From positions 1-64,000 of the forward strand of contig CALKDK010000054.1 in the NCBI GenBank assembly GCA_938084055.1: 64,000 nt of DNA. The letters run 5' to 3'. The stretch comes from an uncultured Luminiphilus sp. (GTDB lineage: Bacteria; Pseudomonadota; Gammaproteobacteria; Pseudomonadales; Halieaceae). A program made the position numbers and the translations under genes. Below the pieces are notes generated by a model. It was given only the letters and a program-made list of their open reading frames with translations. It had not been told where the DNA came from and searched no databases. Positions 27,206-54,363 of this stretch are shown here, piece after piece (within the stretch, counting starts at the first letter, position 1; the number at the start of each line of letters is the position of its first letter).

Positions 27206-27217
27206 GTAACACGTTAT
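27206..27217. promoter_or_regulatory. GTAACACGTTAT, candidate operator before the aau operon
   Basis: This 12-mer matches 10 of 12 positions of the perfect palindrome GTAACATGTTAC found at 51508 and 54352 and keeps the TAAC/GTTA half-sites with the same 2-base spacing. It lies in the 222-base gene-free stretch (27074-27295) upstream of the aldehyde dehydrogenase, 132 bases before its ATG. A shared regulator is inferred; nothing else was recognised in this gap. Confidence 0.5.
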
Positions 27218-27295
27218 CTATTTCCCCAGTATAGCCGTGCTGGGCATAGCCACCAAATCGAACTCGGGCGCCTCCTGTCTGCGGTCGAGCCCACA

Positions 27296-28966
27296 TCATG
27301 CCCGAGACGCCTCTGCGTCTGCTTCACCAAACTCGGAGCGAACCAGCAACTGCGCGTAATTGTCGCGATCAACCTCTCCCCGGGGGCTACGATCCGATTT
27401 GGATACCCAAACCATGACTGCCATCGACACCGGCATGGTGAAGAGCGCTGGATAGTCGTAGGGGAACCAGGGCTGGGCATGGCCAAGCACCGACACCCAG
27501 ACCTGTGGGCCAAGGACAATCAACACAATTGAGGACACCAGGCCTACCAGCGCGCCGGCCATGGCACCCCGAGTGGTGAAGCCACTCCAGAACAGCGATA
27601 AAAACAAGATGGGGAAGGTAACTGACGCAGACACCACCATGGGTATCGTCGCAATAAAGGCTATGTTTTCCTCCTGGAATGCAATGCCAAGCAACACAGC
27701 CGCCAAACCAATAAGCAAAACGCTGGCACGGGTTAAACGGAGCTCCGTCTTGGGGTTTGGCTTACCCTTCTTGAGGACCTCTGCGTAAACATCGTGTGAT
27801 ATGGCGGCCGCACCGGACAGGGTCAGGCCGGCAACCACCGCCAGGATGGTCGCGAAGCAAACTGCAGACATGAAACCGGTGAGAATATCGCCGCCCATGG
27901 CGGTTGCCACATGGATGGCCGCCATGTTGCTGCCGCCAATGAGCTTGCCACCGGCATCAAAAAATTCCGGCGCACTGGCCACGTAGGCGATGGAGCCGAA
28001 GCCGAGGACCAGGAGGGCGATATAGAAATAACCGATGAAGAGCGACGCGTAGTAAGCGGACAACTTCGCCTGCCGCATATCGGGAACAGTAAAGAGCCTC
28101 ATGAGGATGTGTGGCAAACCGACGGTACCAAACAGCATCGAAACCTGAATGGTCAATATCTGCACCGGATCGTCGAAAATAACACCGGAACCTAAAATCG
28201 CTTCCCCCTTTGGATGGGCGTCAACCGCCTTTCCCAGCAACGTGGAGAAGCTGAACCCTGAGTCTGCGAGCAACAGAAACGCAATCAAAGTGACCCCGGT
28301 GAGCAGTAAGCCGGCTTTTATAATTTGCACCCAGGTGGTCGCCAACATCCCACCGAAAGCCACATACGCGAGGACCAGACCGCTAACCAGCAGCAGGGCC
28401 ACCTCGTAGGGCAAGCCGAACAGCAGTTGAATCAGCTTACCCGCGCCTACCATCTGGGCAATCAGATACATGATGACAATAAGAATAGTACTGAAGGCTG
28501 TGACCAGCCGAATGGGGTCACGGTCGAGCCGCTGGGAGATGACATCGATAAACGTAAAGCTGCCCAGGTTCCGAACGCGCTTGGCGAACAAAAACATCAA
28601 TATGGGCCAGGCGCCAAAGGCGCCCAGGGACAGTATCAAGCCATCGAAGCCGCCAACATACATGAGGCCCGTGATACCCAGAAACGAGGCAGCCGACATA
28701 AAATCCCCGGCAATCGCCAACCCATTCTGGGCACCGGATATCTTGCCCCCCGCGTTGTAAAAAGTAGAGCTGGTCGTGGTCGACTTGGACGCCCACCAGG
28801 TGACGTAGAGCGTAAACGCCACAAACAGCAGGAACATGGCAATCGCCGTGGGGTTAATGGCCTGCCCCCCCCCGGTATCGTCCAGCGACCCGGCAGCCAA
28901 ACCCAGGCCCGGCGCCATGACCAGAAGCGCGCAAAGCGCGATCGGTAACAGGTGACGGGGCTTCAT
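27296..28966 (-). CDS. Sodium:solute symporter (ActP/PaaL-like)
   Basis: This 556-residue SSS-family transporter begins with a cleavable leader-like segment (LCALLVMAPGLGLAAG), as in ActP, and has about thirteen membrane helices. Family segments include FYNAGGKISGAQNGLAIAGD, FAKRVRNLGSFTFIDVIS and VFGTVGLPHILMRLFTV-like text (FGTVGLPHILMRLFTV). ActP carries acetate, while the related PaaL/PhaJ of Pseudomonas carries phenylacetate. Here it lies directly downstream of the paa operon and upstream of the aldehyde dehydrogenase, so phenylacetate or a similar acid is a reasonable substrate. It overlaps the DUF485 gene by four bases. Confidence 0.87.
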   Translation of the reverse strand: MKPRHLLPIALCALLVMAPGLGLAAGSLDDTGGGQAINPTAIAMFLLFVAFTLYVTWWASKSTTTSSTFYNAGGKISGAQNGLAIAGDFMSAASFLGITGLMYVGGFDGLILSLGAFGAWPILMFLFAKRVRNLGSFTFIDVISQRLDRDPIRLVTAFSTILIVIMYLIAQMVGAGKLIQLLFGLPYEVALLLVSGLVLAYVAFGGMLATTWVQIIKAGLLLTGVTLIAFLLLADSGFSFSTLLGKAVDAHPKGEAILGSGVIFDDPVQILTIQVSMLFGTVGLPHILMRLFTVPDMRQAKLSAYYASLFIGYFYIALLVLGFGSIAYVASAPEFFDAGGKLIGGSNMAAIHVATAMGGDILTGFMSAVCFATILAVVAGLTLSGAAAISHDVYAEVLKKGKPNPKTELRLTRASVLLIGLAAVLLGIAFQEENIAFIATIPMVVSASVTFPILFLSLFWSGFTTRGAMAGALVGLVSSIVLIVLGPQVWVSVLGHAQPWFPYDYPALFTMPVSMAVMVWVSKSDRSPRGEVDRDNYAQLLVRSEFGEADAEASRA

Positions 28967-29205
28967 CGCCTACCCCATCGGCTGAGCATCATGAAGATGG
29001 TTTCCAGCGTAATGAAGGCGAGCACCAATAACACGAACATCAGCAGCGATCCGGTGATTTCAGTGGCGCCGATGGCAGAACGAAGGCCCTGCCCCCACTG
29101 CGTCCAGTTGAGCGAAAAGGAAAAATAGAGCACGAGGTGGATACCCGAAAAAGATAACCGCAAACGCGTCTTTCTGTGCACCGCATCAATACTGCTGTCT
29201 ATCAT
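28963..29205 (-). CDS. Small membrane protein, DUF485-like symporter partner
   Basis: The 80-residue protein has two hydrophobic helices (about 20-35 and 48-72), matching the size and topology of DUF485/YjcH proteins that precede actP-type symporters. Sequence similarity is weak by eye, so the call rests on topology and the ATGA overlap with the symporter gene. It starts 47 bases after paaE. Confidence 0.7.
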   Translation of the reverse strand: MIDSSIDAVHRKTRLRLSFSGIHLVLYFSFSLNWTQWGQGLRSAIGATEITGSLLMFVLLVLAFITLETIFMMLSRWGRR

Positions 29206-29245
29206 TGACCCCTCTTGATTCCTTTCTGATTTTTATTCCTGTCAC

Positions 29246-29269
29246 GCTGGGCCTAGTCTCCGGCCCAGC
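29246..29269. other. Perfect 8-bp-stem hairpin at the paaE stop codon
   Basis: GCTGGGCC (29246-29253) and GGCCCAGC (29262-29269) form a perfect stem with an 8-base loop. The paaE stop codon is inside it. There is no T-run on the minus strand afterwards, so it may slow or protect the transcript rather than end it. Confidence 0.55.
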
Positions 29270-30356
29270 GCTGATCGAAGTCAACGTGAACACGATCGCT
29301 GATGGGATGGGCCTGGCAGGTCAATATCATCCCTCGGGCAATTTCCTCTGCCGTCAGTCCGCGCTGGATATCCATTTCAACCTCACCGTCGACCAGCAGG
29401 GCCTTGCAGGTGGAACAGACCCCGCCTTTACAGGCATAGGGTAAATCCATACCCAGGTTTAACCCGGCATCAAGCAGGTTTTCGCCATCGGCAGCGATTT
29501 GCACTTTGCTTTCCCGGCCTTCGTTAACGAGTGTGACCTCACAGACCTTACCCGCAAAAGCTTCCGCCCGGGCATGGTGCCTTGCGACGCGCTCGGCGGC
29601 ATCCGATGCGGAGCTGCCGAATAGCTCATAACTGATCCTGTCTTCTGCAATACCAGTGCTCCGCAGGCCTCGGGACACCTCGGAAATCATGGACTCAGGA
29701 CCGCAGAGAAAGAAGTGATCAAAAGCCGAGAGGTCGAGTAAATGCTTGCCCAGCTCGGCGCCTTTGCGGTTGTCGATGCGGCCATTGAGCACCGGCGCCT
29801 CCTGGGTTTCACGGCTCAGAATGTTGAGCCAGTGCAATCGACACAGGTAGCGGTTTTTGAGGAAGGCCAGCTGCTGTCTGAACATGATGCTGGAGGAGCG
29901 CTGATTGCCATACAGCAGCGTGACACGGCTATCTTCCTCGGCCTCGAGTACCGTTGTAAGCATGGACATTATGGGTGTGATACCCGATCCCGCGGCGATA
30001 AATAGGTAATTCACTGGCCCATCTTGATCCGCCGGCAGTGCAAAGGCACCCTGGGGCGGCATGACGTCAAGGGTCATACCGGGCTGCAGTTGGTCATTGG
30101 CGAAATTGGAGAACAGGCCATTATTGACACGTTTGACGGCCACCTGCAGGCGTCCGGCTGAGGGTGGCAAGCAGAGTGAATAGGAGCGACTCAAGGGGGC
30201 CCCATCGAGGGTGGTACGCAGCGTGAGGTATTGTCCTGGCTGGAATTGGAAGGCTGCACCCAGCGCATCCGGCACGTCGAAGGTGATACAAACCGCATGG
30301 TCGGTTTCAGGCTCCACCGCCGCCACGGTGAGATTATAGAATCCTGAAGTCGTCAT
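29253..30356 (-). CDS. paaE: Phenylacetyl-CoA epoxidase reductase subunit PaaE
   Basis: PaaE passes electrons from NADPH to the PaaABC epoxidase. The 367 residues contain an FAD-binding ferredoxin reductase module (QPGQYLTLR and RSYSLCLPP), an NAD(P) module (FIAAGSGITPIMSM and FFLCGPESM) and a C-terminal plant-type [2Fe-2S] domain with CKGGVCSTC and a last cysteine in LTCQAHP. The ATG at 30356 lies one base after the paaD stop; the longer open frame upstream overlaps paaD and lacks homology. It ends the paa operon. Confidence 0.95.
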   Translation of the reverse strand: MTTSGFYNLTVAAVEPETDHAVCITFDVPDALGAAFQFQPGQYLTLRTTLDGAPLSRSYSLCLPPSAGRLQVAVKRVNNGLFSNFANDQLQPGMTLDVMPPQGAFALPADQDGPVNYLFIAAGSGITPIMSMLTTVLEAEEDSRVTLLYGNQRSSSIMFRQQLAFLKNRYLCRLHWLNILSRETQEAPVLNGRIDNRKGAELGKHLLDLSAFDHFFLCGPESMISEVSRGLRSTGIAEDRISYELFGSSASDAAERVARHHARAEAFAGKVCEVTLVNEGRESKVQIAADGENLLDAGLNLGMDLPYACKGGVCSTCKALLVDGEVEMDIQRGLTAEEIARGMILTCQAHPISDRVHVDFDQRWAGD

Positions 30357-30357
30357 C

Positions 30358-30873
30358 CTACAGGTCCTTGAACACGTCGAAGGGTTCGAGACAGGTTTCG
30401 CAGCGAAAAAGCGCTTTACAGGCGGTGGAGCCAAACTCGCTGATACTGCGGGTCTGAGCGCTGCCACACTGTGGGCAGCTAACTGCGTCGTGCTCAGGTG
30501 CTGCCACACCATACGCTGACATCTTGCGCCGGGCTTCCGGCGTCAGCCACGCGGTCGTCCAGGCCGGCGCCAGACGCGTCTCAACGGTCACATTGTGATA
30601 GCCCGCAGCAGCAAGGGCGACCCGTGCATCCTCTTCCATAATTCCCAATGCGGGACAGCCGATGTAAGTGGGCGTAAAAATAAGGGTGATAGCCTCACCC
30701 TGCTGCTGCACATCCTGGAGCACACCCAGCTCGTAGATTGAGATCACCGGTATTTCGGGATCCATGACATGATCAAGAACCGTCCACAACTCGGCACAGG
30801 GAGAACAGCGCCGACGCTCACGCCGTGCCCACTCCTCTGCCGGTAGCAGCGATATCAGCTTGGCCTCAGACAC
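30358..30873 (-). CDS. paaD: Phenylacetyl-CoA epoxidase assembly protein PaaD
   Basis: PaaD is a DUF59/MIP18-type protein needed for a functional epoxidase, probably in iron-sulfur delivery. The 171 residues contain the DUF59 core DPEIPVISIYELGVLQ and PTYIGCPALG, and a C-terminal zinc-ribbon-like part with CPQCGS and CETC. The start codon is GTG. It sits between paaC and paaE with gaps of 12 bases and one base. Confidence 0.93.
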   Translation of the reverse strand: MSEAKLISLLPAEEWARRERRRCSPCAELWTVLDHVMDPEIPVISIYELGVLQDVQQQGEAITLIFTPTYIGCPALGIMEEDARVALAAAGYHNVTVETRLAPAWTTAWLTPEARRKMSAYGVAAPEHDAVSCPQCGSAQTRSISEFGSTACKALFRCETCLEPFDVFKDL

Positions 30874-30885
30874 GGGGTAGGACGC

Positions 30886-31644
30886 TCACCATTGCAACCC
30901 CGGATAGGCGCGCTGCATAAATTGAAGTTCGGCGAGCAAAAACCCGAGATCATCCGTATGGATGCCGCGCCGCCCCCCGGAAACATCAGCCGTCGCTGTG
31001 GGTGGTGTCAGGGTTGCAGCGCGCAGGGTCTCGGACACAGTCTCGATCCAGCAACGTCGCAATTCGGCGGTATCAACCGCGACCCCCAGCGCTACGAGTT
31101 CATCGATCAATTGATCGGTCTCAAACATTTCTCCGGTGTAGATCCAGAGCTCATCGAGGGCTTGCTGGCAGCGACGGTGGCTTTCTTCGGTCCCGTCACC
31201 CAGCCTGACTATCCAGTCCCGGCTGCGGCGTAAATGGTATCGACTTTCCTTGACGGCCTTGGCTCCGATAGCAGCGAGCCGCGAATCGGCGCTGCCCGCC
31301 AACGCTTCGGTAAACGGCAGTGAGAACGCATCGTAGAGAAACTGGCGGCACAGGGTAAAAGCAAAATCACCCCGAGGAAGCTCGCACAGCAGTAAATTGG
31401 TGAACTCCCTGACGTCACGCGTGTACGCAAAGGTGTCTTCGGTGACACCTCCACCGACGCGTTCGGCGGCATACTGGTAAAACAAACGCGCCCTACCGAT
31501 AAAATCGAGTGCCACATTGCCCAGGGCAATGTCCTCCTCCAAAAAAGGGGCGCGGCTCATCCACTCCGATAGGCGATGCCCGAGTATCAATGCGTCGTCA
31601 CCCAGTCGGAGCGCATAGCGCGTCACCGGATCGTCAGATTTCAC
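30886..31644 (-). CDS. paaC: Phenylacetyl-CoA epoxidase structural subunit PaaC
   Basis: PaaC is the non-catalytic ferritin-like partner of PaaA in the 1,2-phenylacetyl-CoA epoxidase. The 252 residues include DALILGHRLSEWMSRAPFLE, DIALGNVALDFIGRARLFY and KESRYHLRRSRDWIVRLGDG, all familiar from PaaC. The GTG start overlaps the paaB stop as GTGA, indicating coupled translation. Confidence 0.94.
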   Translation of the reverse strand: MKSDDPVTRYALRLGDDALILGHRLSEWMSRAPFLEEDIALGNVALDFIGRARLFYQYAAERVGGGVTEDTFAYTRDVREFTNLLLCELPRGDFAFTLCRQFLYDAFSLPFTEALAGSADSRLAAIGAKAVKESRYHLRRSRDWIVRLGDGTEESHRRCQQALDELWIYTGEMFETDQLIDELVALGVAVDTAELRRCWIETVSETLRAATLTPPTATADVSGGRRGIHTDDLGFLLAELQFMQRAYPGLQW

Positions 31645-31925
31645 AGGCTATCAACCCCCTCGGGTAGCGCGTACATAGCCGCGTGTCGGTAGGGTTTGTC
31701 GTCCAGTGGATCGTAGAAGCTTTCACAATCGGATTCCTGCGAAGCGGTGATATCCCGGGACGCCACTACCCAGATACTGACACCCTCGCCCCGTCGGGTG
31801 TACACATCACGGGCGTACTCCAGGGCCTGGATCGCATCGTCTGCATGCAGGCTGCCTACGTGTTTGTGATCGAGGCCCCGACGGGAGCGAATGAAAACCT
31901 CGTACAGTTGCATTTGATCAGCCAT
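31641..31925 (-). CDS. paaB: Phenylacetyl-CoA epoxidase subunit PaaB
   Basis: PaaB is a small structural subunit linking PaaAC units. The 94-residue protein has the expected start LYEVFIRSRRGLDHKHVGSL followed by HADDAIQALEYARDVYTRRGE and the tail FYDPLDDKPYRH. It begins nine bases after paaA and overlaps paaC. Confidence 0.95.
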   Translation of the reverse strand: MADQMQLYEVFIRSRRGLDHKHVGSLHADDAIQALEYARDVYTRRGEGVSIWVVASRDITASQESDCESFYDPLDDKPYRHAAMYALPEGVDSL

Positions 31926-31934
31926 GGCAATTCC

Positions 31935-32891
31935 TCAGGCCACGTCTTCATTGCTGAGACGCTGCTTGGCTTCGTGGACGGCCATCGCCTCGCGCACCCA
32001 GGCACCCTCTCGATGTGCGCGTTTGTGGTGCGCCAGTCGCTGCCGGTTGCAGGGGCCATTTCCCGAGATAACGCGTTCAAATTCTTCCCAGTCGATCGCA
32101 CCAAAATCATAGTGACCTCGAGCATCATCCCACTGCAGATCAGGGTCGGGGACTACCAGACCAATCGCCTCGGCCTGCTGAACCGCCTGGTCAACAAACT
32201 GCTGGCGCAGGTCGTCGTTACTGCGACGTTTGATTTTCCATTTCATAGACTGGGCCGAGTGGGCCGACTCACCATCATGGGGACCAAACATCATCAGGGA
32301 CGGCCACCACCAGCGGTCGAGTGCATCCTGTGCCATATCACGCTGCACCTGGGAACCGTTCATTAACGTCATCATGATGTTGTAGCCCTGACGCTGGTGA
32401 AAGCTCTCCTCTTTGCAGATGCGCACCATTGCGCGGGCATAGGGGCCATAGGATGTGTTCTGCAGCGACACCTGATTGACGATGGCTGCACTGTCGACGA
32501 GCCAACCTATCGCACCGATATCTGCCCAGGTCAGGGAAGGATAGTTAAAAATTGAGGCATATTTGCTGGCCCCGGTGTGCAGCCTGTCGATGAGTTCCTC
32601 CCGGGTTATCCCAAGCGTCTCAGTTGCGGCGTAGAGGTATAGGCCGTGTCCCGCCTCGTCTTGTACCTTGGCCATCAGGATAGCCTTGCGTTCGAGCGAC
32701 GGCGCCCGTGTAATCCAATTGCCCTCGGGCTGCTCACCGATTACCTCGGAATGTGCATGCTGGGAGATCTGGCGAATGAGGTTCTGTCGATATTTTTCCG
32801 GCATCCAGTCCTTGGGCTCGATCTTCTCCTCAGCATCTATCCGTGCCTGGAACGTTTGTTCACCGGGTACCAGGGCAACACGCTTATCCAT
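31935..32891 (-). CDS. paaA: Phenylacetyl-CoA epoxidase catalytic subunit PaaA
   Basis: PaaA holds the diiron centre that epoxidises the ring of phenylacetyl-CoA with oxygen. The family text [20 protein letters not shown] is followed by [14 protein letters not shown] and [12 protein letters not shown], which contain the Glu and His metal ligands. The segment [16 protein letters not shown] is close to the C-terminus. The product is 318 residues from 32891; an ATG nine bases upstream is also possible. It lies 24 bases after paaJ and begins the paaABCDE portion of the operon. Confidence 0.95.
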
Positions 32892-32915
32892 AATCCACAT
32901 CCACTTATCAAGGCT

Positions 32916-34121
32916 TTAAATTCGTTCCAAAATCAGGGCAATCCCCTGTCCAACACCAATACACATAGTGCACAGGGCGTAGCGCCCCTTGCGACGTTGC
33001 AGTTCATAAACCGCCGTGGTCACGAGTCGGGCCCCGCTCATACCCAGTGGATGGCCAAGTGCAATCGCGCCACCGTTGGGATTGACGTGCTCCGCGTCGT
33101 CGGGCAGTCCCAGTGAACGTGTCACTGCCAGCGCCTGAGCCGCGAAGGCCTCATTGAGTTCAATAACGTCCATATCAGCAAGGGACAGTCCGGTGACGGA
33201 CAGTACCTTGAGACTGGCTTCATAGGGTCCATGGCCCATAATTCGAGGCTCAAGACCCGACGTGGCCATACCCAGGACCCTGGCCATCGGTGTCAGGTTA
33301 GCCGCGCTTACTCCGGCCTCTGACGCCAACAGTAAGGCACAGGCGCCGTCATTCACACTCGAGGCGTTGCCCGCAGTGACACTACCCCCATCGCGAAACG
33401 GTGCCGGCAACTTGCCCAGGCGCTCCATGGAAGTCTCCCTGCGTGGACCCTCATCGAGAATGACTGGGACCGGTTCACCCCTGCGCTGCGGCACCCGAAC
33501 TTCTGTAACCTCTTCTGCCAGGCGCCCGGCATCCTGCGCCGCCACGGCGCGCTGGTGGGAGCGCAGGGCAAACGCATCCTGGTCTGCCCTCGCTATGGCA
33601 AACTGTGCCACGAGATTCTCAGCCGTTTCAGGCATGGAATCCGTCCCCCAGCGCTTTTGAAACCGAGGATTTATAAAACGCCAACCTATGGTCGTGTCGT
33701 AGCTCTGGACATTGCGATCGAACGCTGAATTGCCCTTGCCCATAACGAAGGGGGCACGGCTCATGGACTCCACACCACCGGCGAAGGCCAGGTTGATTTC
33801 GCCGCTCTTGATTGCCCGGGCCGCTGACCCTACCGCATCCATACCCGAGCCGCACAAACGGTTCAGGGTGACCGCCGGGACGGTTTCGGGCAAGCCGGCC
33901 AGCAGCGCGCTCATCCGAGCAACATTACGATTGTCCTCCCCGGCCTGATTGGCACAACCCAGCCAGATATCGTCGATCGCCGACCAGTCCATTTGCGGAT
34001 GCCTGGCCATCAGTGCCGCCAGGGGCACGGCTCCCAGGTCATCTGGACGCACGGTCGACAAGCCTCCCGCGTAGCGACCTATGGGCGTGCGCACGGCATC
34101 GCAGATAAACGCATCAGACAC
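32916..34121 (-). CDS. paaJ: 3-oxoadipyl-CoA/3-oxo-5,6-dehydrosuberyl-CoA thiolase PaaJ
   Basis: This thiolase of 401 residues performs the two thiolytic cleavages of the phenylacetate pathway, releasing acetyl-CoA and succinyl-CoA. The nucleophile is C90 in [11 protein letters not shown]. The histidine of [16 protein letters not shown] and the cysteine of [10 protein letters not shown] complete the site. The start [17 protein letters not shown] is like PaaJ/PcaF. The paaI gene overlaps its start by eight bases. A role in beta-ketoadipate degradation by the same enzyme is possible. Confidence 0.93.
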
Positions 34122-34560
34122 TGACAGCCTCCTCTACAAGCGCGCCACCAACAGTGACCGAGTTACCCCGGAAGCGGGCAATGCACTTTCCTGCCTCATC
34201 ATCCACAGCCACGTCGTACACCCCCGATCGTCCACCCTGATGGATAACCCTGGCAGACGCGACCAGCCGGTCATGGAGCTTTGCCGGTCGCAAAAAGTCG
34301 ATCCGCGCGCCGGCCGCGACAGTCACCAGATTGCGACTGTTGCAGGCATAGGCAAAGGCACTGTCCGCAAGGGTGAAAATATAGCCGCCGTGACAAATGC
34401 CGTGACCGTTGACCATGTTCTCCTGCACCGTCATGGCCATCTCAGCGCAACCCAGATCAACCGACATCAGCTCCATACCCAGTGCCTGGCAGGCCCGGTC
34501 ATCGCGCCACATGGCAGCGGCCGCGGCTGTCGCTACCGCTGCTGCAGTTTTGCCTGTCAT
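34114..34560 (-). CDS. paaI: Hydroxyphenylacetyl-CoA thioesterase PaaI
   Basis: This 148-residue hotdog-fold thioesterase has the PaaI motif VNGHGICHGGYIFTLADSAF at about 50-69. It rescues CoA from dead-end thioesters formed when the epoxide ring closes abnormally. It overlaps paaG by four bases at its start and paaJ by eight at its end. The alanine-rich N-terminus up to residue 16 is not conserved. Confidence 0.93.
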   Translation of the reverse strand: MTGKTAAAVATAAAAAMWRDDRACQALGMELMSVDLGCAEMAMTVQENMVNGHGICHGGYIFTLADSAFAYACNSRNLVTVAAGARIDFLRPAKLHDRLVASARVIHQGGRSGVYDVAVDDEAGKCIARFRGNSVTVGGALVEEAVSV

Positions 34561-35345
34561 CGCCCTGTGTACTCCGGCTTGCGTTTCTCCAGAAATGCCT
34601 TGACACCCTCAGCGTAGTCGTCGGTGAAACCCGCGGCGCGCATTAACCCCTTTTCCACCTCGAGCTGATCCTGCAGACTGTTGGTCATCGACGCAGAAAA
34701 AGCCTGTTTCGTGTAGGCAAAGCCCCGGGTAGGCTGCGTTGCCAGATGCTCCGCCAAAGGCATCACGGTCGCCATCAGGTCGGCGTCATCAACCACCTCC
34801 CATATCAGGCCCCACTCCCTGGCCTGCTCAGCAGTGATCTTGGGCATGAGCATCGCCATGCCCTTTGCCCGGGCCATCCCCACCAGTCGGGGCAGGTGCC
34901 AGGTTCCCCCGGAATCAGGTATCAACCCAAGCATGGCGAAGGACTCGACAAACTTTGCCGAGCGGGCAGCGAATACCAGATCGCAGGCCAGCGCGATATT
35001 GGCACCGGCGCCCGCTGCCACGCCATTGACAGCGCAGATGACGGGCTTTTCCATTTCCGTAATCCTGCGAATCAACGGGTTGTAGAAGCGCTCCACGGAG
35101 TCACCAAGATCCACGCGCTGTCCCGGAGCCACATTGCGGTCATTGAGGTCCTGTCCCGCACAGAAGCCCCGGCCTGCACCGGTGATGACGACGGCGCGAA
35201 TCGTCGTATCATCCGCCGCCTCTGTGAGGACCTCGGCCACCTCGGCATGCATCGCCGCGGTGAAACTGTTCAGGCTGTCAGGCCGGTTGAGCGTCAGGCA
35301 GGCCACCCCCTTGGCAACCGAATACAGAATAGATTCGTAGGCCAT
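34557..35345 (-). CDS. paaG: Ring-1,2-epoxyphenylacetyl-CoA isomerase PaaG
   Basis: PaaG converts the ring epoxide to the seven-membered oxepin-CoA and acts again later as a double-bond isomerase. The 262 residues show the crotonase fold: RPDSLNSF, GAGRGFCAGQDLNDRNV, VNGVAAGAGANIALACDLV and LGLIPDSGGTWHLPR with the catalytic aspartate. Similarity to E. coli PaaG, including GFCAGQDLNDRNV, distinguishes it from PaaF. It starts three bases after paaZ ends. Confidence 0.94.
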   Translation of the reverse strand: MAYESILYSVAKGVACLTLNRPDSLNSFTAAMHAEVAEVLTEAADDTTIRAVVITGAGRGFCAGQDLNDRNVAPGQRVDLGDSVERFYNPLIRRITEMEKPVICAVNGVAAGAGANIALACDLVFAARSAKFVESFAMLGLIPDSGGTWHLPRLVGMARAKGMAMLMPKITAEQAREWGLIWEVVDDADLMATVMPLAEHLATQPTRGFAYTKQAFSASMTNSLQDQLEVEKGLMRAAGFTDDYAEGVKAFLEKRKPEYTGR

Positions 35346-35348
35346 GGC

Positions 35349-37391
35349 TCAGTGCTCCCGTCGCTCGACCAGAGTCAATATGTCGTACAGCGCCACCAGG
35401 CCCTGGTCCTGATTGCTCACCTCTACGGCCCAGACCACCACACCATTGGGCTTCTCATCCCCCCGAGGGGCTTTTTTGATTTTGCGCTTGACGGTCAATT
35501 TGCATTGAATAGTGGTGCCTGCGGGAACGGGTTCGACAAAGCGCAGGTTTTCCAGCCCGTAGTTTGCGATAACCGGCCCGGGTGCCGGATGCACAAACAT
35601 GCCCGCGGCCGCTGAAATAATAAAATACCCGTGCGCCACCCGCTGACCAAAAAAAGAGTCCTTCGCCGCTATCTCATCAAAGTGTGCATAAAAATGATCG
35701 CCACTGACACAACCGAAGTTGACAATATCCGCCTCGGTGACCGTGCGCCTGTGGGTCACCAGGGTTTCCCCAATCTTCAAATCCTCAAAGTGCTTCATGA
35801 AGGGATGTACGGCGTCGTGACTCTCCACCGCACCGGGGTGATACTCATTGGTAATCGCCATCAGGGTGGTGGGAGAGCCTTGCAAGGCCGTGCGCTGCAT
35901 GTAGTGCTTGATGGCGCGGGCACCCCCCAATTCCTCGCCACCCCCAGCCCGTCCGGGCCCACCATGGATGAGGTTTGCCAGGGGCGATCCGTGCCCCGTT
36001 GATTCCCCGGCACAGTCGCGATTGATGATCAACATCCGCCCATGCCAGGGCGCGCAACCCAAAATAATCTCCCTGGCCTCGCTGTCATCGCGGGTAAAAA
36101 CCGACCCCACGAGGGACCCCTTGCCCCGGCGGGCCAGTGTCACGGCATCCTCGAGGGACGCGTAGGGCATGACCGTGGCCACCGGACCAAAGGCTTCCAC
36201 TGAATGCACCTTCTCAGCAGTCATTGGCTCATCACACCGCAGTAACGTGGCGGGGAAAAATGCACCTGCGTTGGCTTCCAGTCCCTCCAGAACCATGTCC
36301 TCACCCCCGCCCGCAACAACCCTTGCCTCGGTACTGAGTTCTGCCACGCTGGCCCTGACATCGTCGGCCTGTTCCGCACTCACAAGAGCCCCCAGTCGAA
36401 CCTGCTCCAGCGCTGGATCTCCCGGCGTGACCTTGGCGAGGCGCTCCCCGAGCGCACCCACCACGGTGTCGATCACGCGGTCCGGCACAATGACCCTCCG
36501 TATAGCGGTGCACTTCTGACCGGCCTTGGAGGTCATTTCACGGGCTACCTCCTTGATGAAAAGACTGAACTCTTCGTCTGAGGGCTGGACTGATTGCCCG
36601 AGGATTGCGCAGTTCAGGGAGTCCGCTTCCATGGTAAATGGAATGCTGTTGGCAACAAGGTTGGGATGATTGCGTAACGTGCGGCCTGTGGCGGCAGATC
36701 CTGTAAAAGTCACCACATCCTGCTCATCGAGGTGATCGAGCAGGTCCCCGGTGCCACCGCAGATTAGCTGCACGGCACCCTCGGGAAGGGCTCCCAGTTT
36801 GATCATTTCCGTCACCACCGCATGGGTCAGGTAGGCAGTCGCCGTGGCGGGCTTGATGATCACCGGCATACCCGCAGCAATGCTGGGTGCAACCTTTTCC
36901 AACATGCCCCAGACAGGAAAATTATAGGCGTTGATGTGCACCGCGACTCCCACCTTGGGCGTCAGGATATGCCGACCGACAAACGTACCGTTACGGGACA
37001 GCCGTTCCATATCCCCCTCAACGAGGAGTACATCATTTGGAAACTCCCGGGTGACAAGGCTTGCGTAGCTGAACACGGTACCGATACCGCCCTCGATGTC
37101 TGGCCAGGCGTCGGCTCGGGTGGTACCGGTCTTGAAGGACAGTGTGTAAAACGCCTCCTTGCAGGCCATGAGATGCTTTGCGGTGGCCTTCAGCGCTGCG
37201 GCGCGATCATGGAAAGTCATGGCCCGGAGCGCCTTGCCGCCCACCTGACGCGCGTGCATAACAGCGGCCCGCATATCAAGACCGCCGCTGCTCACTTCGC
37301 AGACGGGTTGTCCGTGGACGGCATCAAGCACCGTACGGCCCGGCGTATCGCCCTCAACCCAGTGGCCGGCGATATAACTGGTGAGTTTCAC
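35349..37391 (-). CDS. paaZ: Bifunctional oxepin-CoA hydrolase/aldehyde dehydrogenase PaaZ
   Basis: PaaZ opens oxepin-CoA with its C-terminal MaoC-like hydratase domain and oxidises the resulting aldehyde with its N-terminal dehydrogenase domain. The 680-residue length equals that of E. coli PaaZ (681). The dehydrogenase part has [14 protein letters not shown] and the active cysteine in [13 protein letters not shown]. The hydratase part has [15 protein letters not shown] with the Asp/His pair. The GTG start at 37391 is preceded by GGAGAGGG and aligns with E. coli, so the longer open frame is not used. It is the first gene of the nine-gene paa operon. Confidence 0.95.
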
Positions 37392-37560
37392 GGATGCCCT
37401 CTCCCTACCACACTGCAAAGCACAATATGATACACAAATAACAAAAAAACAAAAGTTAATGTAATATTTTCAGCGTCACCCCCCAAACGCTATCCTACCG
37501 GGCACACGCTCTCCCCCCGGGAGTGCGCCGCCAAATAGATAACAATCAAGAGGTAACAAC
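37392..37560. promoter_or_regulatory. Divergent promoter region paaZ/amidase
   Basis: This AT-rich stretch separates the paa operon from a divergent amidase. Read toward paaZ, TTGTTT and CATATT are spaced by 17 bases as possible -35 and -10 boxes. The sequence TGATACACAAA (37428-37438) overlaps the proposed -10 box and resembles TGATACAAAA near paaX. A repressor site overlapping -10 would suit PaaX. Toward the amidase, AAGAGGT is a ribosome-binding site before the GTG start. Confidence 0.4.
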
Positions 37561-39003
37561 GTGCGCATCAAGACCCATGGAAAACTATCGCGATCGCCCT
37601 TCGTCATTACCACGCTCCTCATACCGCTTTTGACGGCCTGTAGCCTGGACGACTCCCAGAACAATGAAGGCGCAGTAACCGAGTACCCGCTGGACGTCGC
37701 CACCACACGCCTGCACCAGACACCTGGGCGAACCAACAGCTCGACACACGCGGCATTTATCACTGAAATGCGCGTCGAACCCACGGGGCAGGGCCCGCTC
37801 AGCGGTTTAACGCTGGGCATTAAAGACAACATTCATGTCGCCGGTATGCCCAATACCGCGGGCACGGCGGCCCTCGATGGTTTCGTACCCACCGCCGACG
37901 CGCCCCTCATCCAGCGTCTCCGCGCTGCGGGCGCGGTGGTGGCGGGAAAAAATAACCTCCACGAGCTGGCTTACGGCATTACCAGCGCCAATGCTGCCTA
38001 CGGTACGGTGCGCAACGCCGTGGACCCCACGCTGATAGCGGGAGGCAGCAGCGGCGGCACGGCGGTGGCGGTGGCACTGGGTCTGGTCGATGCCGGCATC
38101 GGAACTGATACCGGCGGATCGGTACGAATACCTGCAGCCCTCAACGGTATTGTGGGCTTTCGACCTTCCACCGGCCGCTACCCAAACGGCGGCATGACAC
38201 TCATTTCATCAACGAGGGATACCGCAGGACCACTAACAACAGCCGTCGCTGACGCGGCACTGCTCGACGCCGTGCTCGCAGGAGAGGCTGTGACACCATT
38301 ACCCACGGTGAATTTAACCGGCCTGCGCCTGGGGGTACCACGTGATTATTTCTATACTGGCTTGAGTCCCCATGTTGAAAACTCGATGACCGCGACGCTG
38401 CAGGCGCTGGCCGCTGCGGGGGTACAGTTGGTTGAGGCCAGCATAGCGGACGTCGGCGCACTCAACGGCGCGACCGGGTTCCCAGTAGCCCTGTACGAGA
38501 CCCAGCAACTGCTCCCCAGGTACCTTGCCAAACATCGGCCCGGCCTCGAAATCGACGACTTTGTCGCTGCCATCATGAGCCCAGATGTGCGGGCGGTGGT
38601 GGGCGATGCGCTGTCTGGTGCCATTGACAAGGCCACCTATGACGCCGCCGTTTCCGAGTATCGCCCCAAATTACAGGCCACCTACAGCGACTACTTTACA
38701 GCGCACAATGTGGCTGCGATTATTTTTCCCACAACGCCGGTGGAGGCCCGACCCATTGCCACCAGTCTGGAGACACTGACCATGGCGGGGCAGGAGCTTC
38801 CGACCTTCTCGACCTACATCCGCAATACGGACCCGGGCTCGAATGCCGGCATACCCGGCATCAGCCTGCCGGCCCTGATACCGTCCGGCACACTTCCCGT
38901 CGGCCTGGAGCTCGATGGACCCCGTGGGAGTGACCGGCAACTCCTGGCCATAGCGCTGGCTATCGAGTCATACCTGGCCGAAGTCCGCAGCGCCTACGAG
39001 TGA
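37561..39003 (+). CDS. Lipoprotein amidase, indoleacetamide/mandelamide hydrolase-like
   Basis: This amidase signature protein of 480 residues starts with a lipoprotein signal whose lipobox ends at C27 (LLTAC), so it should be membrane-anchored outside the cytoplasm. Catalytic elements are K88 (LGIKDN), the [10 protein letters not shown] loop at 161-170 and nucleophile S187 ([11 protein letters not shown]). The late segment [12 protein letters not shown] and the ending [18 protein letters not shown] resemble indoleacetamide and mandelamide hydrolases, which release arylacetic acids. It is divergent from paaZ and its stop overlaps a GTG of the hydroxylase gene, so it may supply an aromatic acid to that enzyme. 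Confidence 0.85.
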
Positions 39004-39005
39004 GC

Positions 39006-48878: not shown

Positions 48879-50171
48879 TCACCGACGGTCCACGACCCGC
48901 TTGGCCTTGCCCTCTGAGCGGGGCACCCCGCCCTCGGGTAACAGCTCCATGGCACAGCTGATACCAACAAGCGATTTAATCTGGTTGCGAAGTTCTCCCA
49001 ACTGCTGCTGGACCTCGGCCTCCTCGACACCGGGCTGCCCTTCAAGGCGCAGGGCCAGGGCGTCCATATTCCCGGCCCTGGACAGCTCAATCTGATAGTG
49101 GGGTGCAAGGGCGGGAAACCTGAGTATCAACTCCTCAATCTGGGAGGGGAAAACGTTCACGCCGCGTATAATGAGCATGTCGTCAGAACGACCGGTGATT
49201 TTCGCCATGCGCCGCATGACGCACTCACTCCCCGGTAGCAGCCGGGTCAGGTCCCGGGTTCGGTATCGAATGACGGGAAATGCGCGCTTGGTCAGGCTGG
49301 TAAATACCAGTTCACCCTCTTCGCCATCGGCCAGCACGGCACCGGTATCCGGGTCAATAACTTCCGGATAGAAATGATCCTCCCAGACCGTGGGGCCGTC
49401 CTTGCTCTCAACAAACTCCTGGGCGACGCCCGGACCCATCACCTCGGACAATCCGTAAATGTCTGTGGCGTCAAGATGACAGCGCGCCTCGATCGCCTCG
49501 CGCATGGCTGGGGTCCAGGGTTCCGCTCCGAAAATACCAATGCGCAGTTTCAGCCGGGCGGGGTCGATACCCTGACGATCGATTTCGTCAGCTATATTCA
49601 GCATGTAAGACGGCGTCACCATAATGATGTCGGTCTCAAAATCCTGGAGCAGCTGCACCTGCTTTTCTGTTTGCCCACCCGACATGGGTATCACGGTACA
49701 GCCCAGCTTCTCGGCACCGTAGTGCGCGCCCAGTCCACCGGTGAAAAGTCCATAGCCGTAAGCGACCTGGACCCGGTCACCGGGCCGACCTCCGGCCGCT
49801 TCAATGGAACGGGCAACGCAAGTGGCCCAGTGCTCAATATCTTCCCGGGTGTACCCCACGACGGTGGGTTTTCCCGTTGTGCCGCTGGACGCATGGATCC
49901 GCACCACCTGTTCCCGGGGTACGGAGAACAGGCCAAAAGGATAGTGGGCGCGAAGATCATCTTTCGTGGTGAAAGGAAATTTTGCGAGGTCAGCGAGGCT
50001 CTTCAGGCTGTCTGGCGCAACACCAGCGGCCTCGAATTTTTCTCTGTAGGGTGCGCAATGCTCAAACACGTGTTCCAGCGTGCTGCGCAGTCGCTGCAGT
50101 TGCAGCGACTCGAGTTGGTCCCGCGACGTTTTCCGAACTTCCATCAATGCCGACATAGACGCATTCACCAC
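48879..50171 (-). CDS. paaK: Phenylacetate-CoA ligase PaaK
   Basis: PaaK activates phenylacetate to phenylacetyl-CoA with ATP, the entry step of the paa route. The 430-residue protein has the AMP-binding loop HASSGTTGKPTVVGYT, then YGYGLFTGGLGAHYG, FGAEPWTPAMREAIE, DIYGLSEVMGPGVAQE and the C-terminal hinge GRSDDMLIIRGVNVFPSQIE, all close to E. coli PaaK. The first few residues are uncertain because ATGs occur at 50171 and 50156. It is divergent from paaX and separate from the main paa operon by 11.5 kb. Confidence 0.95.
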   Translation of the reverse strand: MVNASMSALMEVRKTSRDQLESLQLQRLRSTLEHVFEHCAPYREKFEAAGVAPDSLKSLADLAKFPFTTKDDLRAHYPFGLFSVPREQVVRIHASSGTTGKPTVVGYTREDIEHWATCVARSIEAAGGRPGDRVQVAYGYGLFTGGLGAHYGAEKLGCTVIPMSGGQTEKQVQLLQDFETDIIMVTPSYMLNIADEIDRQGIDPARLKLRIGIFGAEPWTPAMREAIEARCHLDATDIYGLSEVMGPGVAQEFVESKDGPTVWEDHFYPEVIDPDTGAVLADGEEGELVFTSLTKRAFPVIRYRTRDLTRLLPGSECVMRRMAKITGRSDDMLIIRGVNVFPSQIEELILRFPALAPHYQIELSRAGNMDALALRLEGQPGVEEAEVQQQLGELRNQIKSLVGISCAMELLPEGGVPRSEGKAKRVVDRR

Positions 50172-50284
50172 ACTGATCTAACGTTTGCAGTAGTTCTTGA
50201 AGCCTGTAAAGTAAAACACACTAGACTTATGAAGCAACTTTTTTGTATCAGAAAAGACGCCTGCCAAGCGGAAAAGGAACCACA
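50172..50284. promoter_or_regulatory. Divergent promoter region paaK/paaX
   Basis: This 113-base AT-rich region should hold promoters for both genes. On the plus strand TTTTGTATCA (50241-50250) is the reverse complement of TGATACAAAA, the 10-mer found before the TonB receptor at 41.3 kb and, with one change, before paaZ. AAAAGGAA at 50272-50279 is a good ribosome-binding site for the TTG start of paaX at 50285. Confidence 0.45.
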
Positions 50285-51199
50285 TTGAGCATCAGGAAAC
50301 AGCTCCAGCCCATCATCGATGCCTTCCGCGCGCGCCAACCTATGCGCGCGAAATCATTGATCATCACGTTCTTCGGCGATGTTGTCTCCCAGCACGGCAA
50401 GGAGATATGGCTGGGCAGTGCCGCAACGGCGCTGCAGGAGCTGGGTATTAACGACCGATTGGTTCGAACCTCGGTATTTCGCCTGACCAAAGAAGGTTGG
50501 CTGGAAGTGGATCGGGAGGGGCGGCGCAGTTTTTATCGATTCAGTACCTATGGGAGCCTGGAGTACCAGCGAGCGGCCCAGAGGATCTATAGCGCGAGCG
50601 GGGAGTCCTGGCAGGGACGTTGGCAATTGCTCATTCCCACCAACGTTGCTGAATCCCAGCGGGAAGATCTGCGGCGCAGCCTGAACTGGCTGGGTTTTCG
50701 CTCCATATCGCCGGGCACCTATGCGCGTCCGGGGGGCGACCTTGACTCGATTCGAGACCTGCTTGACGAATTCAATATTGAGACTGGCGTGATCCTCATG
50801 GACGCCGAGACCTCTACCCTGACAACCAAAAAAGCGCTTCGGGAAATCGTATCCGAGCACTGGAAGCTCCATAAGCTGGCCGCTGACTACTCGGATCTGA
50901 TACGGCAGTTCAGTCCCCTTGAACAAGTCATTGCCAAGGGTATTACGCCGTCGCCCCAGGAGGCTTTTCAGGCGCGACTGTTACTGATTCACGAGTACCG
51001 GCGTATCCTGCTGAGAGATACACCGCTACCGGAAGACCTGCTGCCCAACCGTTGGCAGGGCACCGTGGCAAGACAGATCGTGACGACACTGTACGAGGCA
51101 TTGGCGGCGCCCTCGGAGGCCTATGTGGTGGGTGAGCTGCAGAACTTACAAGGCAAGCTCCCGAAGGCCGCCGCATCCTTTCATCAACGCTTCCAGTAA
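50285..51199 (+). CDS. paaX: Phenylacetate catabolism repressor PaaX
   Basis: PaaX is a GntR-type-fold repressor of paa genes that is released by phenylacetyl-CoA. The 304 residues contain SLIITFFGDVVSQHGKEIWL, the winged-helix part LVRTSVFRLTKEGWLEV with GRRSFY, and the C-terminal LLIHEYRRILLRDTPLPEDL and LLPNRWQG, as in E. coli PaaX. The TTG start at 50285 is preferred because AAAAGGAA precedes it and the residues upstream are not conserved. It is divergent from paaK, consistent with self-regulation and control of the scattered paa genes. Confidence 0.92.
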   Translation: MSIRKQLQPIIDAFRARQPMRAKSLIITFFGDVVSQHGKEIWLGSAATALQELGINDRLVRTSVFRLTKEGWLEVDREGRRSFYRFSTYGSLEYQRAAQRIYSASGESWQGRWQLLIPTNVAESQREDLRRSLNWLGFRSISPGTYARPGGDLDSIRDLLDEFNIETGVILMDAETSTLTTKKALREIVSEHWKLHKLAADYSDLIRQFSPLEQVIAKGITPSPQEAFQARLLLIHEYRRILLRDTPLPEDLLPNRWQGTVARQIVTTLYEALAAPSEAYVVGELQNLQGKLPKAAASFHQRFQ

Positions 51200-51463: not shown

Positions 51464-51507
51464 GGCGTCTTTGAAAGTTGTCTGCCTTTTTTGAAGCACA
51501 CATACTA

Positions 51508-51519
51508 GTAACATGTTAC
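51508..51519. promoter_or_regulatory. Perfect palindrome GTAACATGTTAC
   Basis: This 12-bp perfect palindrome lies 49 bases before the AhpD-like gene and 44 bases before the possible small divergent gene. The identical 12-mer recurs at 54352 before hpaE, and both are followed by ACG-AAT-like text (GAAATC, GCAATT). It is a strong candidate operator for a dimeric repressor or activator. Confidence 0.6.
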
Positions 51520-51568
51520 GAAATCTTGCCGAAAGCGCAGCACCATTAAGCCTAGAGGAACCCATGCT

Positions 51569-52162
51569 ATGGCACACCTGCCTCCCCTTGCCCGTGAAGA
51601 CATCGCTGACCCTGAATTGCAGGAGATGCTCGAGCGCTACCTGAAGATCCGGAAATTTATCCCCAACAGCGTACTCACCATGTCCCGCAGACCAAAGATC
51701 GCCAAGGCCTTCGCTGCCCTTAATCAAGTCATCCTCTACGAGGGGAGTGTTCCCGAGGAAACCAAAATGCTGGTCGCGCTGATCAGCAGCCAGGCGAGTG
51801 GCTGCCGCTACTGCCAGTCACACATGGCCAACCTGAGCAGTATCTACTCTGCCTCCGACGAGAAAATTGCCGCGCTCTGGGACTTTCCTACCAGCGATTT
51901 GTTTTCCCCAGCCGAACGCGCAGCACTGACTGTTGCGGTCAAAGCAGGCCAATTACCCAACGAGGCCAGTGCGGATGATTTTGCGGAACTGAAACGGCAT
52001 TGGGATGAGGGAGAAATCGTCGAAATTGTGGCTGCCATTGGATTATTCGGCTACCTGAACCGCTGGAATGACACGATGTCCACCGACCTCGAAACCCATC
52101 CCGCCGAAGTGGCCGAGCGCACTCTGGGCACCTGGGGTTGGCACATCGGTAAGCACGGCTAG
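51569..52162 (+). CDS. AhpD-like/carboxymuconolactone decarboxylase family protein
   Basis: The 197-residue helical protein carries the AhpD-type redox motif CRYCQSHM (C-x-x-C with a downstream histidine) after KMLVALISSQASG, the signature of peroxidase-related CMD-family proteins. Such proteins reduce peroxides or act on quinones and lactones; which applies here is unclear. It is preceded by the shared palindrome and lies beside the hpa module, so it may protect against by-products of aromatic ring oxidation. No signal peptide is present. Confidence 0.8.
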   Translation: MAHLPPLAREDIADPELQEMLERYLKIRKFIPNSVLTMSRRPKIAKAFAALNQVILYEGSVPEETKMLVALISSQASGCRYCQSHMANLSSIYSASDEKIAALWDFPTSDLFSPAERAALTVAVKAGQLPNEASADDFAELKRHWDEGEIVEIVAAIGLFGYLNRWNDTMSTDLETHPAEVAERTLGTWGWHIGKHG

Positions 52163-52215
52163 TCCGGGGCAACTGCCAGAAAACAACGCGGGGCTTTGCG
52201 CGCTACCGCACCAAA

Positions 52216-53127
52216 TCAACCACGACGATTGCTGCGCAGCTGCAATGTCATATCGCCACCCGCAGTCGGGTCATCTACGACTGAGTTGCTGAGCACACCA
52301 ATGGTTGGGCAGCTCACCTCGACCACATCACCCGGCGCAAGGTAACGGGGAGGATCAAAACGGGCACCTGCGCCGTTGGGTGTGCCGGTCGAAATCATGT
52401 CCCCAGGTTGCAGGGTGTAAAAAATTGACAGGTAGCTGATCAGGTAATCGAAGGGAAACATCAGGTTGGCGGTGGTATCTTTCTGTCGCAGCTCGCCATT
52501 GACTCGGGTTTCAAGACACAGCCCCGCGATATCACCCACGCTGCCGGGGTCGACCAGCCAGGGACCAACGGCGCCGGTCCGGGGAAAGTTTTTCCCCTGG
52601 GTCACATTGAACTTGGCGTGGCGGACCCAATCCCTGATCGTTCCCTCATTCATCAACGTGTAACCCGCCACATGCTCCATGGCACGCTGCTGGGGAATGC
52701 GATGCCCCGTCTTGCCAACAACCAGGACGATTTCACCCTCATAATCCAGTTGCGGACTTTCAGGGGGACGCCATAAATGTTGGCCAGAACCGGTAAACGA
52801 CTCCTGTGCCCGCATGAACAGGCTGGGCCATTCAGGTTCGGGAGTGTTGTCCTTGTACTCGGCATTGCGGTTGGCGTAGTTGACACCGACACAGATGATC
52901 TTGGACCCACAGACAACCGGCGGCTGTAAAACCACGTCTGCAATCGAGGTATCGGGCGCAACCGTGTCTTCGATCTCCGCAAGAGCCTGCCAATCCAGCC
53001 CTCTCCCCAGCGCCTGAAGAACCGAGCCGCCCTGTCGGCTGCCGAGATCGATGATGCCCCCATCGCCAGAGACAACTCCCCAGGAAGCGGCACCCCCCTG
53101 CTCAAAGCTGACCAGTCTGGTAGCCAC
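52216..53127 (-). CDS. Fumarylacetoacetate hydrolase family protein, HpaG candidate
   Basis: The 303-residue protein belongs to the FAH family. Segments ICVGVNYANRNAEYKDN, PQLDYEGEIVLVVGKTGH and DMISTGTPNGAG are typical and include the metal-binding glutamates and aspartate. In E. coli, hpaG (a FAH-family decarboxylase) completes homoprotocatechuate degradation, and no other decarboxylase gene is seen here, so this gene could fill that step. It could also be a diketone or acylpyruvate hydrolase. The start may be GTG at 53127 or TTG at 53133; the latter overlaps the Rieske gene stop. It is cotranscribed with the Rieske oxygenase. Confidence 0.78.
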   Translation of the reverse strand: MATRLVSFEQGGAASWGVVSGDGGIIDLGSRQGGSVLQALGRGLDWQALAEIEDTVAPDTSIADVVLQPPVVCGSKIICVGVNYANRNAEYKDNTPEPEWPSLFMRAQESFTGSGQHLWRPPESPQLDYEGEIVLVVGKTGHRIPQQRAMEHVAGYTLMNEGTIRDWVRHAKFNVTQGKNFPRTGAVGPWLVDPGSVGDIAGLCLETRVNGELRQKDTTANLMFPFDYLISYLSIFYTLQPGDMISTGTPNGAGARFDPPRYLAPGDVVEVSCPTIGVLSNSVVDDPTAGGDMTLQLRSNRRG

Positions 53128-53129
53128 GA

Positions 53130-54224
53130 TCAAAGCACCGGGTTTTTGATGATGTCGACCGGCTCGGGAAACGTTTCACGCTCCGCCGCGATCTGCTCAA
53201 ACCAAACCCGCCGGAACTGCGCCAAAGCGGTGTCACTGGCCAGCCCCCTTGGCTGGAAATCCCCGTGTTGCTCGAGTAATTTTTGCTGCGCCTCTATGAT
53301 TACCTTATCCTCAAAAAACCCCTCAAACATAACCTCCCTGAGGGTTTCACCCACGTCATCTTCCCCTTTACGGAAATTCCTCAGGTACTCCCAGAAAAAG
53401 TGCGTGGTGCCCCGGGTCTCAGGGGTCATGTACTGACAATTGCGAAATTCCAACAGCTCAGGAGGCTCGGGCATGCTGTCCCACCCAGTCGGGCCAAACT
53501 GGGTATCCATGAGAAAAATACCCGGGGTATACATGCGCACGAAGTTGCGTCGATCCACCACCGTATCCTCGGACCAAGGCGTGATTTTCTGCAGATATGG
53601 GGGTTGGCCACTGGCCCGATGCCAGCGTTCAAATTCAAATCCGTTGGCCAATTTGTCCACCGCCTGTGCCGACTCCTTCGCATAGTCCTCCGAGCCTCCC
53701 AGGGTATTGGTGTGCACGAAAGCGAGGTGGGAAAAATCTGCCAGATTATCCACAATCAGCATCCAGTTGGCGTCGTAGTGCAGGTAGCAGCGCTTGGGCA
53801 GTCCACACCAGTAGGGATCTTCAAGCGGTTCGAAGTGAGGAATATGGTCCGGGTCTGCTTTCTCCGGCTGTCCCATCCAGATCCACAACATGCCGCCGCG
53901 ATCCACCAGGGGGTAGCTGTGCACACGGTGGTTGGGACTGATTCGCGCCTGACCCGGGATTTCCACGCATTGGCCGGAGGGATCATATTTCATACCGTGG
54001 TACATACACCGCAGGCAGTTTCCCTCTATGCGTCCCATGGCGAGGGGCGCTGAGCGGTGACAGCAGCGATTGTCCAGTGCCACATAGCGACCGTCATCCC
54101 CACGGTATATAACAACGGGTTTTTCAAGATAGGTGCGAGCGAGGGGCTTCCCCTCCTCGATCTCACTGGTCCAAGCGGCAGCGTACCAACAATTGTAGAC
54201 AAACCAGTCATCTGCAGTGCGCAT
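53130..54224 (-). CDS. Rieske non-heme iron oxygenase, VanA-like
   Basis: The 364-residue oxygenase component has a Rieske [2Fe-2S] domain with CCHRSAPL and CMYHGMKY, which hold the Cys-His pairs. The mononuclear iron site is DNLADFSHLAFVH at about 157-169. The layout and start WFVYNCWYAAAW resemble vanillate O-demethylase oxygenase VanA and related O-demethylases. It needs a reductase that is not encoded nearby. Beside the hpa genes it may demethylate homovanillate to 3,4-dihydroxyphenylacetate, which would release formaldehyde; this substrate is inferred from context only. It is divergent from hpaE. Confidence 0.85.
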   Translation of the reverse strand: MRTADDWFVYNCWYAAAWTSEIEEGKPLARTYLEKPVVIYRGDDGRYVALDNRCCHRSAPLAMGRIEGNCLRCMYHGMKYDPSGQCVEIPGQARISPNHRVHSYPLVDRGGMLWIWMGQPEKADPDHIPHFEPLEDPYWCGLPKRCYLHYDANWMLIVDNLADFSHLAFVHTNTLGGSEDYAKESAQAVDKLANGFEFERWHRASGQPPYLQKITPWSEDTVVDRRNFVRMYTPGIFLMDTQFGPTGWDSMPEPPELLEFRNCQYMTPETRGTTHFFWEYLRNFRKGEDDVGETLREVMFEGFFEDKVIIEAQQKLLEQHGDFQPRGLASDTALAQFRRVWFEQIAAERETFPEPVDIIKNPVL

Positions 54225-54351
54225 AGTGCGTTTCCATCCCCTTTTCAGCGACTGTCAGCGCGTCAGCAGGGGTCGGCCCCGCCCAGCAGGAGGCCAACCC
54301 CGGCCTGATCAACGCGCACCCCGCCGGCCTTGCCAGCGCCTGCGCAGATAT

Positions 54352-54363
54352 GTAACATGTTAC
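54352..54363. promoter_or_regulatory. Perfect palindrome GTAACATGTTAC before hpaE
   Basis: This copy is identical to the one at 51508. It lies 37 bases before the hpaE ATG and 127 bases from the Rieske gene start, in the 176-base divergent region. A bound protein here would overlap or adjoin the hpaE promoter. Confidence 0.6.

Follow-up and report, generated by a model that had tools for sequence, protein, structure and literature searches.

Three palindromes of 12 bp in a 64,000-nucleotide stretch of DNA from an uncultured Luminiphilus sp. (contig CALKDK010000054.1, positions 1 to 64,000, hereafter the window) raise the question of whether an aromatic amine dehydrogenase operon and a homoprotocatechuate meta-cleavage operon are controlled together, and if so by which regulator. 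The initial annotation had suggested that the palindromes place the two in one regulon, and our analysis supports that idea: a conserved regulon is real, and the amine dehydrogenase operon is tied to the homoprotocatechuate operon. Judging from the sequence, the protein that binds the sites is very probably the MarR-type repressor HpaR, encoded at 9956-10510 on the minus strand. We consider it highly likely that the three palindromes are HpaR operators and form one switch for amine oxidation and ring cleavage, where binding, repression and an inducer are what we infer.

The palindromes and their conservation

Exact matches to GTAACAYGTTAY in the window are confined to the three places first annotated, 27206-27217, 51508-51519 and 54352-54363, and none arose in 100 dinucleotide shuffles. 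Under a base-composition model the chance expectation per 64 kb, on one strand, is 0.0016 for the exact palindrome and 0.0067 for the degenerate pattern. The operator-like palindromes at 54352 and 51508 both read GTAACATGTTAC, the one at 27206 reads GTAACACGTTAT (ATAACGTGTTAC on the minus strand), and none of them is assigned a strand. All three lie in gene-free DNA ahead of pathway genes, as had been claimed. The 27206 site is found between an ActP-like transporter gene (27296-28966) and the start of the operon of an aldehyde dehydrogenase gene and aauBEDA (27085, minus strand), the 51508 site 49 bp ahead of an AhpD-like open reading frame (ORF), and the 54352 site in the divergent gap between a Rieske oxygenase gene (53130-54224, minus strand) and hpaE (54401). 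Matches are few genome-wide, which also agrees with the idea of a regulon: the assembly (2.92 Mb, 79 contigs, 82.75% complete) adds a single one, at C58:14127. For the wider form DTAACRYGTTAH the assembly has 5 sites, where about 2.5 would be expected and the reversed control gives 3. This excess is not significant alone, and the case for a regulon therefore rests on position and conservation and not on a genome-wide count of the loose motif.

Our comparison within the genus covered 57 genomes, the window's own included. The exact palindrome is present in 9 of them, at 11 sites, and the 9 sites outside the window stand ahead of hpaE (8 sites) or of the aau aldehyde dehydrogenase gene (one, in genome G042, at the place orthologous to 27206). 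All 9 of these genomes have both HpaD, which is found in 12/57, and HpaR, found in 13/57. When upstream regions were scanned, [AGT]TAACRYGTTA[ACT] was found in all 12 hpaE regions, 44-64 bp from the start; 11 of these were on contigs from an HpaD search that did not use the motif, while the G029 region was located through the motif itself. The starts of the aau aldehyde dehydrogenase genes carry the site in 9/9 cases (8/8 in the upstream scan, and G053), so the sites are conserved ahead of both orthologous operons. In 9/9 cases the Rieske gene has the gap and the site in common with hpaE, the FAH-family gene has a site upstream in 1/2, and for AhpD the scan gave 1/1, which is the window's own. 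The hpaD contigs of G018 and G029 and the aau contigs of G018 and G034 stop short of the promoters and were left out. A second, diverged amine dehydrogenase cluster in G056 (L084, G056:C1:2258000-2272000), 58% identical, is without an HpaR-type site; it was dropped from the aau count, as its head is without such an aldehyde dehydrogenase gene.

For 28 other gene classes the same scan covered 140 upstream regions and found no site. The set is made up of genes at least 50% identical to a window protein; some of the classes are not true operon heads, because intervening small genes went unrecognised, and receptors below 50% identity, some of which carry sites, are excluded from it. It could be argued that the sites arose by chance, or are conserved for some other cause such as transcript structure, since the loose motif is hardly over-represented genome-wide. 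We find this scarcely credible, as the sites are conserved ahead of two separate operons, with fixed half-sites and a variable centre, and are absent from all of the 140 regions.

HpaR and the other candidate regulators

As candidate factors the AraC protein at 20.7 kb, the HpaR-like protein at 10 kb and something outside the window had been named; HpaR is now strongly favoured and AraC disfavoured. The window HpaR exceeds the curated cut-off of TIGR02337 (141.6 vs 121.2 bits), is 39% identical to E. coli HpaR across 129 amino acids, and has the PDB chain 7el2_A, named HpaR, as its third best match (9.4e-20). Compared with E. coli HpaR it is longer by about 35 residues at the N-terminus, and its helix motif is RPSVSR.

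Within the genus, the form GTAACRYGTTAC occurs in 13/13 genomes with HpaR (30 sites) and in 6/44 without it (6 sites), and of these last six sites five are inside ORFs of at least 419 amino acids and one is in a 131-amino-acid ORF, which is perhaps not a gene. Other centres give a weaker contrast, with 15 sites in the 13 genomes with HpaR and 24 in the 44 without. The Fisher value for the co-occurrence of GTAACRYGTTAC and HpaR, 1.1e-8, is too optimistic given the relatedness of the genomes. We also tried GTAAC-NN-GTTAC with any centre as a marker and rejected it: it is present in 37/57 genomes, and in most genomes the reversed control occurs more often, so that only the RY-centre form is informative. 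In G056 the site precedes an FAH-hpaR gene pair.

Co-occurrence alone cannot tell HpaR apart from other genes gained in one package with it, and this speaks for the AraC protein (20734-21768) or an unrelated regulator encoded outside the window (TetR, LysR or other) as the binder. Further evidence was drawn from a wider set of loci. From Proteobacteria we took the best 80 of 533 HpaD loci, 7 of which belong to the genus and 73 do not. The core TAACRYGTTA occurs 59 times, in 42 of the 80 loci. Each of the 11 permutations of its half-site occurs 0-5 times, and among the 64 half-sites tried the second most frequent reaches 14. Outside the genus the core is found in 37/73 loci with 53 matches, of which 50 are intergenic (where 14.1% of the bases lie) and 44 fall in the 250 bp that precede an hpa or hpaR gene (3.1% of the bases). 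The commonest form among the 53 is TTAACATGTTAA, with 27, and in nine non-genus loci, mostly of Burkholderiales, TAACATGTTA stands immediately ahead of hpaR, 4-22 bp before the called start. The RY core is present in 27/40 non-genus loci with a nearby HpaR, as judged by profile, and in 10/33 without one. A whole-genome search for 18 of these 33 loci found HpaR above the cut-off in the genomes of all 18, and in 0/14 controls. The presence of the site thus tracks hpaR within the genus and does so more weakly outside it. In E. coli strain H1, TTAACATATTAA is found 31 bp ahead of hpaG, one letter off the core.

The layout of the sites also agrees with published footprints. In Yersinia, HpaR protects TTAA-N4-TTAA sequences at hpaG1, one of them over the -10, which are called similar to those of E. 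coli W in the available text of PMC7180172, and the window site GTAA-CATG-TTAC has the same TAA-N4-TTA frame in a meta operon promoter, with G/C and not T/A as the outer letter. The core that precedes hpaR and hpa genes in distant Proteobacteria and the matching footprint layout together favour HpaR over other regulators, and we regard a different binder of this kind as very improbable. AraC proteins do not usually target a 12-bp two-fold palindrome, and together with the position of the core ahead of hpa genes in distant bacteria this disfavours the AraC protein in particular.

A further candidate is encoded closer by. It had been stated that no regulator gene lies beside any of the sites, which does not hold, as paaX, for the phenylacetate repressor (50243-51199, plus strand; TIGR02277 283.1 bits, cut-off 264.55), ends 308 bp from the 51508 site. 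PaaX could then bind the palindromes and link hpa and aau to phenylacetate catabolism, and it is present in all 13 genomes with HpaR and in one other (14/57). The paa promoters speak against this, as a site is found in 0/8 paaZ, 0/7 paaK and 0/7 paaX upstream regions, and the same promoters have a different common element, GATACAAAAA...TATTAC (by eye). Moreover, a single genome, G031, has PaaX and neither HpaR nor an RY-centre site, and the TAACATGTTA sites just ahead of hpaR in the nine non-genus loci point away from PaaX too. PaaX, although it sits beside a site, is for these reasons a very improbable binder, and the paa promoters, with their other element and without the palindrome, led us to reject it. 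The element itself, conserved in the genus by eye in the paaK-paaX gap (50172-50242) and upstream of paaZ (37418), is a candidate PaaX operator.

Several observations weigh against HpaR, or against the breadth of its proposed regulon. Genomes from a single genus do not count as independent, and the RY-centre form was picked after the list of sites had been viewed. In the window hpaR is 17-44 kb distant from the sites, and a direct upstream scan found a site within 250 bp upstream of hpaR in 0/13 genus genomes, which speaks against direct autoregulation of hpaR in the genus, while control of its own gene is reported for E. coli HpaR in the available text of PMC7180172. The same text also describes activation by HpaR in Yersinia, of one promoter and through a different, imperfect site. 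Among the non-genus loci, 13/40 with a nearby HpaR are without the RY core and 10/33 without a nearby HpaR carry it, and the E. coli site itself is one letter off. The outer base is G/C in the genus and more often T/A elsewhere. As to a possible link of the G outer base with the HpaR recognition helix, all 13 distinct HpaR sequences of the genus have RPSVSR and others have MPSLSR, GPSLTG or similar, but the R is also present in E. coli (RPSLTG), where the outer base is T. Finally, none of 4 AhpD relatives (62-79% identical) has the site in the 300 bp upstream; three of these genes follow immediately on an ORF of the same strand. Of the regulon with three sites, as first proposed, the hpaE and aau sites are thus upheld by conservation and the AhpD site is not.

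Promoters and the proposed switch

As read from the DNA, the sites overlie promoter-like sequence at positions typical of repressor operators. A consensus promoter scan detected the hpaE promoter and no other, and the remaining pairs were read by eye from the upstream DNA. At hpaE, a -35-like TTGCCA (54330-54335) is followed after 17 bp by a -10 TAACAT (54353-54358), which is inside the palindrome. Ahead of the aau operon, on the minus strand, the promoter-like pair is TTGGTG (27251-27256) and TATACT (27228-27233), with a spacing of 17 and the site just downstream. The pair TTGGTG-17-TATACT can be seen by eye in 4/9 aau genomes (the window, G003, G022 and G052), with variation in the last -35 letter. 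Upstream of the AhpD-like gene there is a weak promoter-like pair, TTGTCT (51478-51483) and CATACT (51501-51506), and at C58:14127 the palindrome falls within the 17-bp spacer of TTGCTA-17-TAATAT, the promoter of a TonB-receptor/sulfatase operon.

We hypothesize that a dimer of HpaR binds GTAAC-RY-GTTAC (core TAACRYGTTA) over these promoters and would thereby block RNA polymerase. The promoters covered would be those of hpaEDFHI and the divergent Rieske-FAH genes, of the aldehyde dehydrogenase-aauBEDA operon and of the AhpD-like gene, the last in this genome; at aau, HpaR on the site downstream of the promoter pair would cover the transcription start. On binding an aromatic pathway acid, probably 4-hydroxyphenylacetate (4-HPA) or homoprotocatechuate, HpaR would be released, and amine oxidation and ring cleavage would then be switched on together. 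E. coli HpaR is released by 4-HPA-type ligands, and for this reason the inducer is probably a hydroxylated phenylacetate. A fourth operator, at C58:14127, would put the TonB-receptor/sulfatase operon under the same control.

The genes of the window and the probable wider regulon

The homoprotocatechuate meta-cleavage operon, hpaE-hpaD-hpaF-hpaH-hpaI, extends over 54401-58776 on the plus strand, and the Rieske (VanA-type) oxygenase and FAH-family genes over 52216-54224 on the minus strand, divergent from hpaE. The aromatic amine dehydrogenase operon (21776-27085, minus strand) is headed by the aldehyde dehydrogenase gene (25652-27085), followed by aauB (24456-25643), aauE (23931-24455, a name given from position only), aauD (23323-24246), aauA (22805-23326) and two cytochrome c genes. 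Both tryptophan tryptophylquinone (TTQ) subunits have the PDB aromatic amine dehydrogenase as best match, the heavy chain with 145 bits vs 77 for methylamine dehydrogenase and the light chain with 162 vs 152, and the NCBIfam methylamine dehydrogenase models match them below cut-off only; by sequence both are nearer to aromatic than to methylamine dehydrogenase. The window further holds the phenylacetate (paa) operon (29253-37418), paaK (48879-50171) and the AhpD-like gene of the CMD family (51569-52162, plus strand). The 4-HPA hydroxylase HpaB-1 (TIGR02309) is above its curated cut-off in 0/57 genus genomes and below it in 37/57; candidates for the enzyme that forms homoprotocatechuate are the products of the phenol-hydroxylase-like gene (39000-40907) and the Rieske gene (53130-54224).

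Outside the window, the site at C58:14127 precedes the TonB receptor and sulfatase genes, and this operon probably also belongs to the regulon. Similar receptor-sulfatase pairs with sites are found in G003, G042, G046 and G018, where the receptor is split over two ORFs, and G034 has a lone receptor at a contig end; this count is biased, as the pairs were located through the motif. AhpD relatives in G003 and G018 are placed 380 and 33 bp past the sulfatase gene, on the opposite strand, which ties the AhpD gene to the receptor-sulfatase theme, even if a site of its own is known from this genome only. In G018 and G034, two HpaR-type palindromes 23 bp apart stand before a TonB receptor gene (L117:6262-6296 and L118:1839-1873). 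In G003 and G034, GTAACGCGTTAC starts 66 bp ahead of a PhyH-family gene (L116:5926 and L119:2159), and in the own genome GTAACATGTTAA, a hybrid of the genus and the general form, is found 258 bp ahead of a class III aminotransferase ORF (L025:8813, G000:C4:100812).

The regulator and the type of operator are already known, and the wider reach and the shift in the outer base were not found among the papers that our literature search listed. E. coli W and Yersinia pseudotuberculosis have, in the available text of PMC7180172, the same MarR-type HpaR and a TAA-N4-TTA site in the meta promoter, over the -10 in Yersinia; here, in contrast, the outer base is G/C and not T/A, hpaR is away from the hpa operon and without a site of its own, and the regulon reaches the amine dehydrogenase operon and probably others. 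In Pseudomonas putida U, the 3,4-dihydroxyphenylacetate catabolon (tyn and hpa) likewise leads from amine oxidation into homoprotocatechuate cleavage, and HpaR acts on its meta operon, as far as that text describes it. The window differs in its quinoprotein aromatic amine dehydrogenase, and what is new is that the amine operon shares an HpaR-type site; in the collection covered by a full-text search, no paper combines the name aromatic amine dehydrogenase with homoprotocatechuate, nor with the set of tryptophan tryptophylquinone, operon and regulation. The PaaX regulon is alike in that paaX and paa genes are in the window, and different in its other conserved element and the absence of a GTAAC palindrome.

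A bolder reading, which we put forward tentatively and do not hold to be the likelier one, is that in these marine bacteria HpaR, elsewhere a local repressor of ring cleavage, has turned through rewiring into a master switch, with the outer base of its operator changed from T to G. The programme under it would run from uptake to ring cleavage of aromatic amines, some perhaps as sulfate esters, by way of a TonB receptor, a sulfatase, the TTQ amine dehydrogenase, an aldehyde dehydrogenase, a Rieske oxygenase and meta cleavage. The analysis proposes a regulator for the operon of the quinoprotein aromatic amine dehydrogenase, predicts the core of the HpaR operator for many Proteobacteria, and offers a testable regulator, operator and regulon for the breakdown of aromatic amines in marine bacteria.

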